Origin: a virus
Virus record (IMG/VR): IMGVR_UViG_3300011416_000033
Coordinates: 1-26,268 of that record
Length of the DNA stretch: 26,268 nt
Reading direction: 5' to 3' (one strand)
Notes under the pieces: model-generated
What the model saw: the letters and a program-made list of their open reading frames with translations, nothing else
The model's database searches: none
What the model was told of the DNA's origin: nothing
Shown here: positions 22-6,433 of the stretch, one piece after another
How positions within the stretch are numbered: position 1 is the first letter of the stretch
Layout of the letters: each line of letters opens with the position of its first letter
Translations under genes and position numbers: made by a program

Positions 22-432
22 ATGGATCACAGCGATATTGTCGAATTTTATCGAAGCGGAAAGACGCTGGCACAGATAGGGGAAATATATGGACTGTCGA
101 GACAGAGAATCCAGCAAATAACGAAGAAGCTAGGGCTATCTGCGCGGGATGGTGGGGCGCGCGTTCGTGCTGTGCCAGAACCAGAGCGCACACGCCGTCA
201 GGCATTTGGTCTGCAAAAGTCAATGGCGAAACAGCGCGGTATCGAATGGCTTTTGACGTTCGATGAATGGTGGGAAATATGGGCGCCTCGTTGGGATAAT
301 CGTGGAAGGAGATCAGGTCAAATGGTTATGTGCAGAAACCGCGATAAAGGTCCGTATTGCGTTGGCAATGTGAGGATAGATACCGCCAATGCAAACCACG
401 CCGAATATCACGCCATGAAACGTAGCCCTTGA
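22..432 (+). CDS. helix-turn-helix phage accessory protein (HNH-associated type)
   Basis: A 136-aa protein. Residues about 4-40 form a helix-turn-helix of the kind seen in sigma region 4 or transposase N-termini (TLAQIGEIYGLSRQRIQQI). The C-terminal half carries a block I recognise from small phage accessory and homing-endonuclease-like proteins: GIEWLLTFDEWWEIW, then DKGPYCVGNVRI followed by an N/H-containing tail. I do not see a complete zinc HNH motif, so nuclease activity is not claimed. No Shine-Dalgarno site precedes the ATG. Its stop codon overlaps the -35 box of a promoter that drives the region ahead of the lysis genes. In lambdoid phages the gene in that position is the late antiterminator Q, so a regulatory role is possible from position only. 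DNA binding is likely; the exact function is unknown. Confidence 0.7.
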   Translation: MDHSDIVEFYRSGKTLAQIGEIYGLSRQRIQQITKKLGLSARDGGARVRAVPEPERTRRQAFGLQKSMAKQRGIEWLLTFDEWWEIWAPRWDNRGRRSGQMVMCRNRDKGPYCVGNVRIDTANANHAEYHAMKRSP

Positions 433-457
433 ATTTCGTCAAATTATGGAATATGAT
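429..457 (+). promoter_or_regulatory. sigma70-like promoter ahead of the leader, tRNA and lysis genes
   Basis: TTGAAT (429-434) and TATGAT (452-457) are separated by exactly 17 nt. They match the sigma70 consensus at 4 of 6 and 5 of 6 positions. The -35 overlaps the stop codon of the preceding gene. The start of transcription would be near 464. An AATAGT element at 465-470, just inside the transcript, resembles a second -10 box, the type of element that causes the sigma-dependent pause at lambda PR'. That last point is speculative. Confidence 0.55.
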
Positions 458-463
458 GACGCC

Positions 464-568
464 CAATAGTCCGACTGCCGGCCAGTTGTTGCCGTGGATG
501 CGCCCCGATGGGAGGGCGCAGGTCGCTCGATAGAATCCTGAACGGCTCCGAGAAATCGGGGCCGTTTT
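464..568 (+). ncRNA. candidate leader RNA of about 105 nt
   Basis: This gene-free stretch lies between a sigma70-like promoter and an intrinsic terminator. The predicted transcript has three hairpins: ACTG/CAGT at 474-477 and 483-486; a 7-bp GC-rich stem at 499-505 and 514-520 with an 8-nt loop; and the terminator at 541-566. It could be a free small RNA, a lambda 6S-like by-product of a late promoter with a leader terminator, or a cis-acting antitermination RNA like HK022 put. I see no open reading frame with a ribosome site in it. The boundaries are inferred from the promoter and terminator. Confidence 0.4.
541..568 (+). terminator. intrinsic terminator T1 ahead of the tRNA
   Basis: Ten-bp stem, 541-550 with 557-566, containing one G-U pair; 6-nt loop agaaat; the 3' arm runs into TTTT (565-568). 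It ends transcription from the promoter at 429-457 or from the upstream gene, and separates both from the tRNA. Confidence 0.75.
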
Positions 569-578
569 CACGTACAGG

Positions 579-653
579 CGCGCAGTGTAGCAGCGGCAGC
601 TAGCCAGCCTCATAAGCTGGAGGTCGATGGTTCGAATCCATCCTGCGCTACCA
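579..653 (+). tRNA. tRNA with CAU anticodon, initiator (fMet)-like
   Basis: Full cloverleaf with encoded CCA (651-653). The acceptor is 579-585 with 643-649, A73 at 650. The D stem is 588-591 with 599-602. The anticodon stem is 604-608 with 616-620 (5 perfect pairs), loop CTCATAA, anticodon CAU at 611-613. The T stem is 626-630 with 638-642, loop TTCGAAT. Three features match bacterial initiator tRNA: the first acceptor pair is a mismatch (C1 x U72), the D stem has A11-U24, and the sequence from position 8 reads TG-N-AGCAG as in fMet tRNA. It lacks the three consecutive G-C pairs of the initiator anticodon stem; 29-31 with 39-41 are A-U, G-C, C-G. Alternatives are elongator Met or a lysidine-type Ile tRNA. 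It lies between two terminators. Confidence 0.9.
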
Positions 654-696
654 ATTCAGGCCGTCTGCCAGACTGCTGAATCCTCCGGTGGACTCG

Positions 697-730
697 GGGC
701 CGGACTCACAAGGTCCGGCCCTTTTTCTTT
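697..730 (+). terminator. intrinsic terminator T2 upstream of the lysis genes
   Basis: Nine perfect base pairs, GGGCCGGAC at 697-705 with GTCCGGCCC at 713-721, loop of 7 nt, then TTTTTCTTT (722-730). The ribosome site of the next gene (GGAG at 731) follows directly, so this strong terminator sits right at the entrance of the lysis cassette. Confidence 0.9.
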
Positions 731-738
731 GGAGCGCC

Positions 739-1077
739 ATGAGAGACAACCCGCTGGTGTGGCTGGCCATGTTCCTAGCGATGGTAGCCGTGATCGCTTT
801 CCTCACGATCGGCCAAGCGCGCGCCCAAGTCGACGGGTGTGAGCTGCTGTGGGACATCGCCATTGTCGCCCGAGGGATGGCGGAGGAGGGCATACCCCAG
901 GCCACCATCACGAGCGCGATGGCGCGCATGTACAGCACGCCCAGGCCCCTGTTGGATGAGGTCGCCAAGGTCGCGGTTGAGAGCAAGCTGCCGGCCGGGG
1001 TGTTCGCGTACCGCATGAGAGCGCAGTGCAATGGCTCGCCTGATCCAAAGCCCGGTACGACATTTCGCTCTACGTAA
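739..1077 (+). CDS. small secreted protein at the head of the lysis cassette
   Basis: A 112-aa protein. I choose the ATG at 739 because GGAG (731-734) lies 4 nt upstream; an in-frame GTG at 688 would put coding sequence through the terminator. Residues about 7-25 are hydrophobic and are followed by ARA-Q, a good signal peptidase I site, so the mature protein of about 80 aa should reach the periplasm. It has two cysteines in the mature part, which could form a disulfide, and no domain I recognise. Its place before the holin-like gene suggests a lysis or envelope role, but this is inference. Confidence 0.7.
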   Translation: MRDNPLVWLAMFLAMVAVIAFLTIGQARAQVDGCELLWDIAIVARGMAEEGIPQATITSAMARMYSTPRPLLDEVAKVAVESKLPAGVFAYRMRAQCNGSPDPKPGTTFRST

Positions 1078-1139: not shown

Positions 1140-1355
1140 GTGAAACGTTGGACTCTGATCCCGGACTGGAAACGATTGTGGATCAAGCTGTGGAGCGTGA
1201 AGCTCGCCCTTATCGCGGGGTTACTGTCCGGTATCGAGGCCGCGGTCGCCATTTGGATTGATGGGCGCCCGGCGATCCTCGCCCTGGGCGTGATGGCGAT
1301 CAGCTTCGGGGCGGCGGTGTCCAGGATCGTGGCGCAACCGAAGCTGCACCAATGA
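1140..1355 (+). CDS. holin-like small membrane protein
   Basis: A 71-aa protein with a GTG start preceded by GGAGG (1129-1133) at 6-nt spacing. It has a basic, Trp-rich N-terminus (PDWKRLWIKLWS), two hydrophobic segments (about residues 20-39 and 42-63), and a polar tail ending AQPKLHQ. This pattern matches a family of small phage proteins commonly found just before the endolysin and annotated as holin-like. The next gene, an endolysin with a signal-anchor-like N-terminus, starts inside its stop codon (ATGA at 1352-1355). Size and two-segment topology resemble pinholins such as S21, which work with signal-anchor endolysins. Membrane location is well supported; holin function is inferred from size and context. 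Confidence 0.75.
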   Translation: MKRWTLIPDWKRLWIKLWSVKLALIAGLLSGIEAAVAIWIDGRPAILALGVMAISFGAAVSRIVAQPKLHQ

Positions 1356-1858
1356 GCAAGCCCGTTCGCATCGTCGTGGCGGCGCTGTCCCTGAGCGCTG
1401 CCGGATACGCCGGTATCGTCGGCTACGAGAGCTACACCAGCGTCGCGGTGGTTCCAACCAAAGGGGATAGATGGACCGTGGGTTTTGGCTCCACATTTCG
1501 CGATGATGGCTCACCCGTTCAGATGGGCGACACGATTACCCCACCCCAAGCGATCAAGCGCAGCGTGGCGCATATCGCCAAGGATGAGACCGGATTGAAG
1601 CGCTGCGTCACCGGCGAACTGCACCAAGCAGAATTCGACATTTTGATTGACTTTTCGTACCAGTATGGCGTCTCAGCGACGTGCCGATCTGGAATGGTGC
1701 GGCACATCAACGCCGGCGAGTACGAACAGGCTTGCAACGCTTACCTGCAATGGAAGATGGCGGGCGGATTCGATTGTTCAACGCCGGGCAACACACGATG
1801 CCGCGGCGTGTGGACGCGCCAGCTTGAGAGGCAGGCGAAGTGCCTGGCGGCGCAGTGA
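1352..1858 (+). CDS. GH24 lysozyme-type endolysin with N-terminal signal anchor
   Basis: A 168-aa endolysin that should cleave peptidoglycan between N-acetylmuramic acid and N-acetylglucosamine. The N-terminus (residues 7-23) is a weakly hydrophobic, Ala/Gly/Ser-rich segment typical of signal-arrest-release endolysins. The catalytic region is YESYTSVAV...DRWTVGFGST, with Glu26 as general acid and Thr42 conserved. The position that holds Asp in T4 and phage 21 lysozymes appears to be Thr36, with Asp39 nearby; this variant is common in related phage lysozymes. The C-terminal part has the family pattern QAEFDILIDFSYQYG and a VW-x-RQLER helix. The ATG overlaps the stop of the holin-like gene. Cysteines at several positions may matter for periplasmic folding. 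Confidence 0.93.
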   Translation: MSKPVRIVVAALSLSAAGYAGIVGYESYTSVAVVPTKGDRWTVGFGSTFRDDGSPVQMGDTITPPQAIKRSVAHIAKDETGLKRCVTGELHQAEFDILIDFSYQYGVSATCRSGMVRHINAGEYEQACNAYLQWKMAGGFDCSTPGNTRCRGVWTRQLERQAKCLAAQ

Positions 1859-2567: not shown

Positions 2568-3040
2568 GCATGACCCAGCGCGGCCTCCTATCCCCGGCCC
2601 TCATCCAACTCATCCTGTGGGGCGTTGCTGCAGCCGCCGTCATGGGCGCCGTCTGGTGGGTCGTCGATACCTGGCGGGACGGCCGGGCGGCAGTGCGCGA
2701 GGTCGAGGCAATCAAGGCCGAGGTATTTCCCGGATGCCGCAAGGATACCGCGCTTGAGTGCGCGCGGGAGGTCAAAGCCGCGCTTGCCGACTGTGAGACG
2801 CGCGAGAAGGCGTTGCTCGCCCTGATCGCCAAGCAAAACGCGGCGATACAGGAACTGGAAACCAAGGCCAAGCAAGCGCAGGCACGGGCCACGGCTGCAT
2901 TGGCGCGGGCGGATAAGGCCGCTACAGCCACGTTGGTCGAGCGCGAGCGCTTGGAGGCCCTGATCCTCGCCGGCAATGCGCCCGGGGAATGCCCGGCAGG
3001 TCAGGCCGTGTCGCAGGTTAGGCAGGGGTTGCGGCCGTGA
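2564..3040 (+). CDS. inner-membrane spanin (Rz-like)
   Basis: A 158-aa protein with one N-terminal transmembrane segment (about residues 15-36, Ala/Val/Trp-rich) and a long periplasmic region rich in Ala, Glu, Lys and Arg predicted to form coiled coil (about residues 44-145). This is the standard i-spanin design: anchored in the inner membrane, it binds the outer-membrane spanin and fuses the two membranes as the last lysis step. The next gene, a lipoprotein, starts in its stop codon (GTGA at 3037-3040), as expected for an Rz/Rz1 pair. It has a few extra cysteines (GCRKD, ALEC, ADCE) that could crosslink dimers. Confidence 0.85.
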   Translation: MSMTQRGLLSPALIQLILWGVAAAAVMGAVWWVVDTWRDGRAAVREVEAIKAEVFPGCRKDTALECAREVKAALADCETREKALLALIAKQNAAIQELETKAKQAQARATAALARADKAATATLVERERLEALILAGNAPGECPAGQAVSQVRQGLRP

Positions 3041-3288
3041 GGGCCATCATCTTGCTCCTGCTGCTCGCCGGCTGCGCCACCGTGCCGGACGTGCCGACAG
3101 AGGTTAGGGTCCCCGTCGCCGTCCCCTGCCTGACCGTCGACCAGGTGCCGCGCGCCACGTTCAAAACCGATGCCGATCTCGCCAAACTCCCGGACGGCCC
3201 TCTCGTGCTGGCGCTGGCTAAGGACCGGCTGGAGAGGCAGGCGCACATCGGCAGGATTGAGGCGATCCTACAGGGCTGCGTCAAGTGA
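3037..3288 (+). CDS. outer-membrane spanin lipoprotein (Rz1-like)
   Basis: An 83-aa lipoprotein with a GTG start overlapping the i-spanin stop. The N-terminus MRAIILLLLLAGC is a signal peptide with lipobox LAGC, so Cys13 would be lipidated. The mature part (about 70 aa) begins with a Pro/Val-rich stretch (ATVPDVPTEVRVPVAVP), typical of Rz1-type o-spanins. It should sit in the outer membrane and bind the Rz-like partner in the periplasm. The stop codon directly abuts the end of the converging XRE gene with no spacer. Confidence 0.88.
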   Translation: MRAIILLLLLAGCATVPDVPTEVRVPVAVPCLTVDQVPRATFKTDADLAKLPDGPLVLALAKDRLERQAHIGRIEAILQGCVK

Positions 3289-3498
3289 CTACCGACTCCC
3301 CCGGAACGGCATCCTCTCCAACCCGGCCGCGTGCAGCCAGTAGATCCACGCCCTGGAGCCCATCGGTTGCGCGCCGATCTCGTAGCGCGCCCACGTCACC
3401 CGGTTGACCCCGGCGAGATCAGCGGCCTGCTGCTGAGTCAGGCCGGCCTGAGCACGGGCGGCGCGGATGTCAGCGGGGGTTGGACTAGTCGGGGTCAC
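3289..3498 (-). CDS. XRE-family transcriptional regulator
   Basis: A 69-aa protein on the minus strand with a GTG start (3498). It is essentially one Cro/CI-type helix-turn-helix: ADIRAARAQAGLTQQQAADLAGVNRVTWARYEIG, with recognition helix around VNRVTWARYE, plus a short C-terminal tail. Small XRE proteins of this type are common in phages as repressors or Cro-like regulators. It is the last gene of a three-gene leftward operon, overlapping the previous gene by 14 nt. A palindrome overlapping the operon promoter (4076-4092) is a plausible binding site. Its stop codon touches the stop of the converging o-spanin gene and I see no terminator between them. Confidence 0.85.
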   Translation of the reverse strand: MTPTSPTPADIRAARAQAGLTQQQAADLAGVNRVTWARYEIGAQPMGSRAWIYWLHAAGLERMPFRGSR

Positions 3499-3733
3499 GC
3501 GATTCCAGCGTCAGGCCGGCACGGTAGCCTCGTCCAAGGGCGGCGCGTTGCGGGTCCGTGGAGTCTGATGCCGCGAGCCACATATCGTGCTCCGCCTCAG
3601 TGCCGAAATTTTCGCCGTGATGGGCGCGGCGCAGGCCGCGCATGTAGCCGGCCCACCATGACGAGCGGATGTGATCGGAGTCTAGCCGGCGCAGCGTGTC
3701 GGCCCGGCGCAGCAGGGATGCGAATGTGCTCAC
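3485..3733 (-). CDS. hypothetical protein of the leftward operon
   Basis: An 82-aa protein with a GTG start overlapping the upstream gene stop by 4 nt (3730-3733). It is rich in Arg, Ala and Trp (HIRSSWWAGYMRGLRRAHHG) with several His and Glu residues, and looks soluble and helical. I do not recognise it. Operon context with an XRE regulator suggests an accessory or regulatory role. Confidence 0.65.
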   Translation of the reverse strand: MSTFASLLRRADTLRRLDSDHIRSSWWAGYMRGLRRAHHGENFGTEAEHDMWLAASDSTDPQRAALGRGYRAGLTLESRDPD

Positions 3734-4014
3734 GAACGATCCAGTTCGCGGCGCTCGGCGGCAACGCGGCGGCGCAGCTCGCGACGGATAACGCGCGGCA
3801 GAGACTCGGGGGTGGCCATGAGCGTGCCGCCGGTGCTTTCCAGGCGCTCGCAGACCTGCGGGTAGTGCCCGGCGTTGTCGCGAATACGGACGTAACCAGC
3901 CTGCCCGCTGGACGTGTGCGGAGCGAAATACGTCGTTCTCGTGCGTTCGCCGTAGAACGGATCGTCACGCTCGACTGTGACGTTGTTGGAATCTACTGTG
4001 ATTTTGGTTTTCAT
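3730..4014 (-). CDS. hypothetical protein, first gene of the leftward operon
   Basis: A 94-aa protein with an ATG at 4014 preceded by GAGGAG (4026-4021) at 6-nt spacing, a strong ribosome site. The N-terminal half is predicted beta-strand rich (KITVDSNNVTVERDD, TRTTYFAPHT) and the C-terminal third is strongly basic and helical (RVIRRELRRRVAAERR). No family is recognised. It is the promoter-proximal gene of the XRE operon. Confidence 0.7.
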   Translation of the reverse strand: MKTKITVDSNNVTVERDDPFYGERTRTTYFAPHTSSGQAGYVRIRDNAGHYPQVCERLESTGGTLMATPESLPRVIRRELRRRVAAERRELDRS

Positions 4015-4138: not shown

Positions 4139-4318
4139 ATGACATTCCAAATCTACCGCACCCGTGGCAAGCAGTACCGCTGGCGGCTGCGCGCCAAGAA
4201 CGGGAAGATCGTCGCCTGCAGCGGCGAGTCCTACAAGCGCCGCGTGGACATGATGGAGTCTATTGATCTCGTCCGCGCCACGGACTACGCAACGCAGGTC
4301 GAGGAGGTAGCGAAATGA
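4139..4318 (+). CDS. DUF1508 (YegP/UPF0339-like) small protein
   Basis: A 59-aa protein with AAAGGG (4127-4132) before the ATG. The sequence FQIYRTRGKQYRWRLRAKNGKIVACSG followed by ESYKRR and a helix (VDMMESIDLVR) matches a single DUF1508 unit: strands F-x-h-Y and Y-x-W-R-h, N-G-x-h-h-x-x-S-G-E, then helix. The family is widespread in bacteria and phages and its function is not established. It lies just across the operator region from the XRE operon and overlaps the next start by ATGA. Confidence 0.8.
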   Translation: MTFQIYRTRGKQYRWRLRAKNGKIVACSGESYKRRVDMMESIDLVRATDYATQVEEVAK

Positions 4319-4620
4319 GCACACCGGATTGTCCCATCGAGCCGCACAGCCGGCGCAGCATCATCGGCACCCGAATCGTCGAGGCAATAATTATCGCAGC
4401 CGTCACGGCCGGCGCCACCGGTTACGTGAGCCTGCGTGTGGTCGAGGCGCGCGCGGATAATGACCGCGAATCGATCAGCGAGTTGAAGGTCGCGATGCGG
4501 GAAAACACTCGCGCTATCAACGATTTGACGCGCCTCGCGAACCGTCTGGAAACCGTGGCCGAGGAACGTCGCTCTCAGATCGAGGCCAGGCTGCGGGCGC
4601 TGGAGGAGCGGCGCCGGTGA
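4315..4620 (+). CDS. membrane-anchored coiled-coil protein
   Basis: A 101-aa protein with GAGGAGGT (4301-4308) 6 nt before the ATG. One hydrophobic segment (about residues 21-40, IVEAIIIAAVTAGATGYVSL) is followed by a charged helix to the end (DNDRESISELKVAMRE... RRSQIEARLRALEERRR) with heptad spacing, so it should be a single-pass protein with a coiled-coil domain. Similar small phage proteins are sometimes annotated as XhlA-like or holin-associated. Function unknown; its place is between the regulatory module and terminase. Confidence 0.7.
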   Translation: MSTPDCPIEPHSRRSIIGTRIVEAIIIAAVTAGATGYVSLRVVEARADNDRESISELKVAMRENTRAINDLTRLANRLETVAEERRSQIEARLRALEERRR

Positions 4621-4782: not shown

Positions 4783-5142
4783 ATGGTGAAGGTTACTAAA
4801 GTAGCAAAAAATAGTAAACGCGGGGCGAGGCCGGGAGAACGTCGGGGTGGACGCCAGAAAGGCACGCCAAACAAAAAGACCGCCGCGACGGTGAAAGCGG
4901 TTAAAGCCGGCGGCGTGACGCCCCTGAACTACATGCTGAACGTGATGCGTAAGCCCATCCCGGCCGATGCCGAGCCGCAGGTAAAGGTTGTCATGATCGG
5001 GATGCGGTTCGAGGCCGCGAAAGCGGCGGCTCCGTACGTGCATCCCAAACTCGCGGCGATCGAGCACACCGGGAAGGACGGGGAGAGCCTGTTCCCGAAG
5101 CGCGTGCTGATCGAGTTCGTAGATGCCCCAACCAGAAAGTGA
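4783..5142 (+). CDS. terminase small subunit-like protein
   Basis: A 119-aa protein. I use the ATG at 4783 rather than the in-frame TTG at 4753; GGGGAC (4769-4774) gives a fair ribosome site. The N-terminus is highly basic (GERRGGRQKGTPNKKT), then a TPLNYMLNVMRKP segment and a helical AKAAAPYVHPKLAAIEH segment. This is the common small-terminase pattern of podovirus-like phages, with the basic region probably contacting DNA. It overlaps the large subunit start by 20 nt. It should recognise phage DNA and recruit the large subunit. The first 12 codons are unusually AT-rich, which may ease translation initiation. Confidence 0.78.
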   Translation: MVKVTKVAKNSKRGARPGERRGGRQKGTPNKKTAATVKAVKAGGVTPLNYMLNVMRKPIPADAEPQVKVVMIGMRFEAAKAAAPYVHPKLAAIEHTGKDGESLFPKRVLIEFVDAPTRK

Positions 5143-6433
5143 GGCGCCGCAGTCACCGGTTCAATTTCCACGACTGCTGCAACCGCTGTTCGCGCCGTAC
5201 CGCTATAAGATTTTGTACGGTGGCCGGGGTGGGGCGAAATCATGGAGTGTCGCTCGCGCGCTGCTCACGCAAGGCATGAATGACCCACTGCGAATCCTGT
5301 GCGCTCGGGAGGTCATGCGTACGATCGCTGATTCCGTCCATCGACTGCTCTCCGACCAGGTCGAGGCGGTGCCGGAGTTCAAGGCTTGGTACAAGGTACA
5401 GGAGACATCGATTACCGGTCATAACGGGGCCGAGTTCCTGTACACGGGGCTACGCGCGATCGACGCGGACAAGATCAAGTCGTATGAAGGGTGTGACGTT
5501 GCGTGGGTGGAGGAGGGCCAGGTTCTCTCCAAGCGGTCTCTGGATATTTTGATACCGACGATCCGGGCTGATAGTTCGGAAATCTGGATAACGCTGAACC
5601 CGGAGTTGGACACCGACGAGGTTTACACCCGGTTCATAGGTAGCACGCCGCCGCCGAGGTCATGGGTTCAGCGGGTGACGTGGAGAGATAATCCTTGGTT
5701 CCCTGCCGTGCTGGAGGAAGAGCGCCAGACGATGCTGGCGCGAGACCCGGTTGAGTACGAGCACGTTTGGGAGGGGCGTCCGCGTACGGTGGTCGCTGGC
5801 GCGATCTACGCGACCGAAGTGACTGGGATGATTGAGAGCCGGCGGGTGAGGCGCGTGCCCTACGATCCACGCCTGCTGGTGCACACGATATGGGATCTGG
5901 GCTGGAACGACCAGACCAGCATCATATTCGCGCAGCGATTGCACTCCGAGGTCAGCATCATCGACTACGAGGAGGAGTCATTCCTGCGCTATGACCAGTG
6001 GGCGAAGCGGCTGAAGGACAAGGACTACGTGTACGGGTCGCACTGGCTTCCCCACGACGGAGGCCACAAGACGCAGGCTGGCAAGGGCATCAGCGCGCAG
6101 GATACGCTGAAGCGGCTGCTCGGGATGAAGCCGAAGCTGATTCCCAAACCGGCCGTCAAGGAGGACACGATCAAGGCCGCCAGGATGCTGTTCCCGCGGG
6201 TCTACATGGACGAGGACAAGGCCGCGCGGCTTCTGCTGTGCCTGAAGCGTTACCGACGCGGGGTGCCGGAATCGACCGGCGAGCCCGGGAAGCCGTTGCA
6301 CGACGAATACAGCCACGGCGCGGATACGTTTGGGGGCTTGGCGACGATCGTGGACAAGCTGGGGAACGAGACCGATGCGCCGGTCGTGCGCGTTGTGGAA
6401 CACACGCCTCTAGATCGCGGAATGGGAATGTGA
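5123..6433 (+). CDS. terL: terminase large subunit (DNA-packaging ATPase/nuclease)
   Basis: A 436-aa protein of the Terminase_3/PBSX XtmB-like type. The ATPase domain has Walker A GGRGGAKS (33-40), Walker B CDVAWVEE (124-131) with catalytic Glu, and the coupling motif TLNPE (157-161). The C-terminal RNase H-like nuclease has metal-binding Asp258 (WDLGWNDQTS), Asp312 (LPHDGG) and Asp401 (HGADTF). All expected motifs are intact, so it should be active. It cuts concatemeric DNA and pumps it through the portal into the prohead. The start lies inside the small-subunit gene. The 90 nt after it (6434-6523) hold no convincing gene, only a 20-codon frame and the portal ribosome site. Confidence 0.96.
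   Translation: MPQPESEAPQSPVQFPRLLQPLFAPYRYKILYGGRGGAKSWSVARALLTQGMNDPLRILCAREVMRTIADSVHRLLSDQVEAVPEFKAWYKVQETSITGHNGAEFLYTGLRAIDADKIKSYEGCDVAWVEEGQVLSKRSLDILIPTIRADSSEIWITLNPELDTDEVYTRFIGSTPPPRSWVQRVTWRDNPWFPAVLEEERQTMLARDPVEYEHVWEGRPRTVVAGAIYATEVTGMIESRRVRRVPYDPRLLVHTIWDLGWNDQTSIIFAQRLHSEVSIIDYEEESFLRYDQWAKRLKDKDYVYGSHWLPHDGGHKTQAGKGISAQDTLKRLLGMKPKLIPKPAVKEDTIKAARMLFPRVYMDEDKAARLLLCLKRYRRGVPESTGEPGKPLHDEYSHGADTFGGLATIVDKLGNETDAPVVRVVEHTPLDRGMGM

Follow-up and report, generated by a model that had tools for sequence, protein, structure and literature searches.

An initiator-like tRNA gene between two terminators in a putative lambda-type late switch of an uncultured podophage

Introduction

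For 50 years it has been asked why lone tRNA genes occur in phages, and the locus described here raises this question together with that of how a late gene block is expressed when two terminators and a tRNA gene stand between it and its likely promoter. The window, meaning the whole stretch of DNA that was analysed, is a linear virus fragment of 26,268 bases that is podophage-like in having an SU10-type portal and lysis genes 5' of the terminase; its terminase large subunit (5123-6433, plus strand; phrog_3717, E 6e-53) is 48-49% identical to those of Hollowayvirus LKA5/H66. The contig starts 21 nt 5' of an open reading frame (22-432, plus strand) encoding a small HTH (sigma-70 region 4-like) and HNH-associated protein of 136 aa (PF04545, E 1e-5; phrog_16521, E 1.5e-16), and the early genes are absent from the fragment. 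The 306 bases that separate this frame from the next one, at 739, hold a promoter, a leader, a first terminator (T1), the tRNA gene and a second terminator (T2). The best reading of this arrangement, and judging from the sequence a probable one, is a processive-antitermination switch of the lambda PR'/tR' type that incorporates an initiator-like tRNA gene.

Promoter and Leader

The putative late promoter is formed by TTGAAT (429-434) and TATGAT (452-457), 17 nt apart on the plus strand; it matches the consensus at 9 of 12 positions and is the sole match of this quality on that strand in the first 1.9 kb. Its position at the junction of early and late genes, directly before the lysis block, bears out what the original prediction had described, and the TGA stop of the frame 22-432 falls within its -35 box. 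The same scan scores lambda PR' at 9/12, and the two promoters have in common a -35 hexamer of the form TTGA(C/A)T and possibly a -10-like hexamer just past the start. In the window the latter is AATAGT (465-470, plus strand), 7 nt past the -10, which in a post hoc comparison was set beside GACAAT of the related contig L008 and AACGAT of lambda; it was noticed after the fact and is a possible sigma-dependent pause element. When the upstream regions of the window and of another relative, L004, were compared, the best local alignment was the promoter itself (15 of 2000 shuffles were equally good), with TTTCG following the -35 and GGAA preceding the -10. A Q-binding element was also sought between the two hexamers, where the spacer ends TTCG and GGAA proved common to the window and L004 only; the exact promoter pattern, among 2.9 million viral contigs, was likewise found in L004 only.

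The leader RNA (464-540, plus strand) is without a likely gene. Three hairpins had been described in it; the first is weak, and the credible ones are T1 and a GC hairpin; folding of the leader including T1 (464-572) lies only slightly above that of shuffles (z -1.57). A leader RNA that itself confers terminator resistance in cis, like put of HK022, had been put forward as an option and would agree with a leader that contains no gene and does form a credible hairpin, but it is very improbable given that the fold barely exceeds shuffles, that the tRNA was the sole match of an Rfam scan with none in the leader, that the leaders of the relatives, too few and too diverged for an alignment, differ, and that L004 has a protein candidate adjoining its promoter. 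Nothing in these results favours a cis-acting RNA.

Terminators and Lysis Block

Terminator candidates on the plus strand of the whole window were ranked by hairpin energy plus a U-run score, and among the 31 obtained T2 (696-730; -21.8 kcal/mol) ranks first and T1 (541-568; -18.1 kcal/mol) third. The stem of T1 (542-565) is perfect, with 10-12 pairs, and is followed by a short U run (TTTT), while T2 has an 11-pair stem (696-722) and a long U run reaching 730; the segment 654-730 folds with a z of -2.37. With the tRNA gene at 579-653, the order T1, tRNA, T2 stands as originally given. The U run of T1 ends 10 nt before the tRNA and that of T2 ends 8 nt before the ATG at 739, and the separate promoter just before 739 that had been named as possible counter-evidence did not appear, the consensus scan giving no promoter-like site of at least 8/12 in 566-738. 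Because of these short spacings and the lack of such a promoter, the tRNA and the late genes are seemingly reachable only through terminator read-through, to which there seems little alternative for expressing either the tRNA or the gene at 739. The main loophole is an 8/12 promoter at 508-536, which is not conserved in the relatives and whose start would fall inside T1, so that it could bypass this terminator.

The first gene after T2 (739-1077, plus strand; GGAG at 731-734) encodes a small protein with a signal-like N-terminus and no match in family searches. It is followed by a holin of the DUF7940 type (1140-1355, plus strand; PF25612, E 1e-11; phrog_1356 holin), by an endolysin of the phage lysozyme family with an N-terminal signal-anchor-like segment (1352-1858, plus strand; PF00959, E 1e-20), and by a weak match to an Rz-like spanin at 3037. 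A lysis cassette starting 9 nt after T2, as first claimed, is correct in that an open reading frame preceded by a good ribosome-binding sequence starts at 739, but the lysis genes proper start at 1140. Farther on, three short open reading frames on the minus strand (3289-4014) split the block between Rz/Rz1 and the terminase; one of them encodes an XRE-type HTH protein (PF13560, E 1e-9) and the third has a homolog in the contig L019.

The same anatomy could be plain punctuation, in which T1 closes the early operon and T2 the tRNA gene, and in which late expression comes from leakage through both or from a promoter invisible to the scan, with no regulated antitermination. Terminators beside tRNAs and at operon ends are indeed common, the tRNA could be transcribed from the promoter at 508-536, and non-sigma-70 promoters are overlooked by consensus scans; this account is nevertheless unlikely, as the strongest plus-strand terminator of the window would be placed immediately before a gene that needs expression, and as terminators flank the tRNA on both sides in relatives of unrelated sequence. 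In five contigs pooled, the interval from the tRNA to the following gene held 4 terminators where 0.24 were expected (P 1e-4), and 3 were found upstream of the tRNA against 0.83 expected, a slight excess (P 0.05), where the P values are guides rather than strict tests since the regions were picked after the layout had been seen.

The tRNA Gene

The tRNA, treated as filler in the original prediction, is rather the most conserved part of the locus. It is a tRNA-Met(CAU) with an encoded CCA (579-653, plus strand), detected by ARAGORN and matched in Rfam with 58.5 bits (E 2e-10). Bacterial initiator tRNAs are characterized by a 1x72 mismatch, by an A11:U24 pair that aids formylation, and by three G:C pairs in the anticodon stem (29-31:39-41), for which strong conservation among cellular initiator tRNAs is reported (PMC7949028). 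The window tRNA has a C1.U72 mismatch, at a position that is C.A in E. coli metZ and G-C in the elongator metU, together with A11:U24, G2:C71 and C3:G70; among 77 aligned positions, 56 are identical to metZ versus 44 to metU. Its anticodon stem (CCAGC/GCTGG) has A29:U41, G30:C40 and C31:G39, and two of the three conserved G:C pairs are therefore absent. By its 1.72 mismatch and its A11:U24 pair the tRNA is initiator-like, and the label stays at this term because the set of three G:C pairs is incomplete.

Across a set of 12 phage tRNAs, 1.72 is unpaired in 11 and a purine at 11 faces a pyrimidine at 24 in 10, while G30:C40 is present in all, G31:C39 in seven and G29:C41 in a single one; seven of the 12 came via similarity to tRNAs in the set or its literature, and the counts do not describe a random sample. 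That the G:C pair at 29:41 has been lost repeatedly poses an evident biochemical puzzle. According to a survey, tRNA-fMet genes have in general been avoided by phages where this tRNA is a target of VapC cleavage (PMC10264068).

A tRNA gene at a phage locus may also be an attachment site or a captured host tRNA with no part in a switch, and several prophage relatives in host genomes do adjoin host tRNAs and carry integrases. For the present locus such an origin can hardly be expected, because no integrase lies at the site in the window or in the relatives L003, L004, L008 and L251, and because the isotype and the initiator-like features are kept despite the diverged sequence.

Related Phages

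Relatives were collected by terminase searches of viral contigs, and only loci with a readable upstream region were used. Those with a terminase identity of at least 57% and enough upstream sequence mostly have a tRNA-Met(CAU) on the same strand, as in L003 and L004 (both 68%), L251 (60%) and L008 (58%), while looser relatives have a tRNA at the site in a minority, mostly of other isotypes. The elements, their order and their recurrence were read directly from these sequences, and the layout is kept though the DNA is barely alignable. L251 has the full anatomy of the window, with a promoter TTGCAA-16-GATAAT at 2888 (9/12), T1 at 2957-2974 (-11.8, with TTTTTATT), the tRNA at 3114-3191, T2 at 3229-3253 (-17.1, with TTTTTATT) and a small open reading frame at about 3278. 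In L004 a zinc-finger, Q-like gene is followed by a promoter TTGACT-18-TATGCT resembling that of the window, by the tRNA and by T2, with no ordinary T1; the stop of the Q-like gene overlaps the promoter in its -35 box, as the stop of the frame 22-432 does in the window. L008 shows a promoter of 10/12, a strong T1 (-26.9) and the tRNA, with no T2 found. In L003 a good promoter is lacking and the terminators are all weak; an HNH homolog, corresponding to the window protein 22-432 and located at 4150-4386, follows one of these terminators and lies directly 5' of the tRNA. Such absences are weak evidence because the window and most relatives are fragments.

Among rhizobial phages, phiLM21 shows the order annotated transcription antiterminator, HNH gene, T1, tRNA, T2 and terminases, and RHph_TM3_3_3 the order NusG-like antiterminator, HTH gene, two strong terminators that end 11 nt before a tRNA-Met, and terminase; neither has a good promoter close to the tRNA. 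For phiLM21-like prophages single tRNA-Met/fMet genes have been reported (PMC12429752); they share the lone tRNA with the window and differ from it in having other head genes, and the passages of that report on them describe no switch. Similar tRNAs occur at other places in RR1-A, phiKX1/2, Elanor, DoCa5 and MW202675, and the tRNA is therefore not tied to the late-switch layout.

The rhizobial phages bear on a further possibility, that antitermination acts on a long early transcript arriving from upstream, through an N-like, NusG-like or other factor, and that the promoter at 429 is minor or unused. Their antiterminators are generic or NusG-like, no good promoter lies close to their tRNAs, and L003 too is without one; against this, promoters of at least 9/12 are found at the expected place in the window, L004, L008 and L251, and those of the window and L004 align beyond the hexamers, which makes an early-transcript mechanism quite unlikely.

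Several other observations were made at these loci. HNH or HNH-like genes or remnants lie around the tRNA in the window (22-432), L003 (4063-4572), L004 (about 2200-2255) and phiLM21 (gp35), clustering in differing positions at the junction as if at an insertion spot. In L008 a segment at about 1330-1362, after T1 and 5' of the intact tRNA-Met, resembles a tRNA 3' half and is perhaps a decayed second tRNA, and the tRNA-Met of phiLM21 (L320, NC_029046; 21148-21224) is on the minus strand in GenBank and on the plus strand according to ARAGORN. The contigs L185, L236, L238 and L242, with terminases of about 50% identity, have 2, 3, 2 and 4 in-frame TAG codons in the terminase, respectively, and a tRNA with the anticodon CTA just 5' of it, which is read as late-gene amber recoding in relatives of the window phage; L196 has the CTA tRNA and a terminase without in-frame TAG. 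L089 (63% terminase identity) was discarded as a layout match, since its gene order is different and the site is without a tRNA. Genome contigs of Methylobacterium and some others also have tRNAs 5' of the terminase, but these were judged to be host tRNAs or attachment sites and were not counted, several of them adjoining integrases.

Candidates for the Antitermination Factor

From the lack of a visible Q homolog it had been argued that the factor may be new, which does not follow: the window has no phrog_127 match, but the fragment begins just upstream of the site and lacks the early genes, and the absence of Q therefore proves nothing. In loci whose upstream side is fully covered, a gene of the antitermination type is often present, as with the Q-like gene of L004 and the annotated genes of phiLM21 and RHph_TM3_3_3. 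The L004 protein, whose gene was likewise recognized from the sequence, matches phrog_127 (E 5e-6) and a protein of MW202713 that is annotated as an antitermination protein (E 3e-7 with 35% identity over 88 aa; 34% when aligned at full length); it resembles lambda Q in the zinc finger, on which its assignment mainly rests, and its predicted structure (pLDDT 40) is an unusable model. Phage_antitermQ (PF06530) gave no match in L003, L251, L004 and L008, and a weak one in L017. The proteins in the Q position of L003 and L251 matched no family, and the upstream proteins of L004, L003 and L251 have almost no relatives in viral or phage collections. Those of L003 (3612-4022) and L251 (2447-2872) are orphans of 126-141 aa with a common YLxEWxxWxR...GY motif (BLASTP E 4e-4 in a single comparison) and are possibly divergent antiterminators.

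Proposed Mechanism and Known Systems

Late control by antitermination, as originally proposed, is upheld in part, by the anatomy of the window and by the layouts of L251, L004, L008, phiLM21 and RHph_TM3_3_3, in which a tRNA with one or more flanking terminators lies ahead of late genes. For the processive-antitermination switch we infer the transcription start, the termination efficiency, the factor, and the timing and use of the tRNA, as follows. The host sigma-70 polymerase would start near 464 constantly and mostly stop at T1, so that only a short leader RNA is made, until an antitermination protein, most likely Q-type and encoded just 5' of the contig end, accumulates and loads at the promoter or pause site. 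The modified polymerase would then pass T1 and T2 and transcribe the tRNA and, after it, the lysis and packaging mRNAs; the tRNA, freed by RNase P and 3' processing, would appear late and presumably be used for initiating translation at that stage.

One close model is the PR'-6S-tR'-Q system of lambda and of phages 82, 21 and P22, which likewise has a promoter between early and lysis genes, a gene-free leader and a terminator; the window differs in having a second terminator and a tRNA gene enclosed by the pair, in having no Q, and in a leader of about 100 nt versus about 200 in lambda. In Stx phages tRNA genes also lie in the Q-dependent late operon, after Q and pR' and ahead of the lysis genes, and are elongator tRNAs for rare codons, unlike that of the window. 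The pR' and Q of Stx phages are documented (PMC6266700). The Pseudomonas phage YA3 is, like the window phage, a podophage, and a temperate one, with a Q gene, a promoter (PP4), a terminator (tRf10) 224 nt on and then holin and endolysin genes (PMC7326022); it has no tRNA genes, and its Q is of the Phage_antitermQ type, which was not detected in the close relatives of the window. T5 and cyanophages also encode tRNA-fMet, but within large tRNA sets (PMC4810235), whereas the tRNA of the window is a lone gene inside a late leader.

Conclusions

The variant aspect of this probable lambda-type switch is the initiator-like tRNA inside it. Lambda-type late control would thereby be extended to an uncultured podophage group, and an initiator-like tRNA between two terminators, recurring in unrelated phages, connects the tRNA with the late switch, so that the old question of lone phage tRNA genes can be tested directly. 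Tentatively, the arrangement may be a recurrent module of temperate phages of several bacterial groups, in which terminators hold back a phage-borne initiator tRNA whose anticodon stem is non-canonical (G29:C41 lost, G30:C40 retained), and in which nothing but antitermination at the late stage sets it free; the late switch would thus alter translation initiation, or restore it when toxins such as VapC cut the host initiator tRNA.
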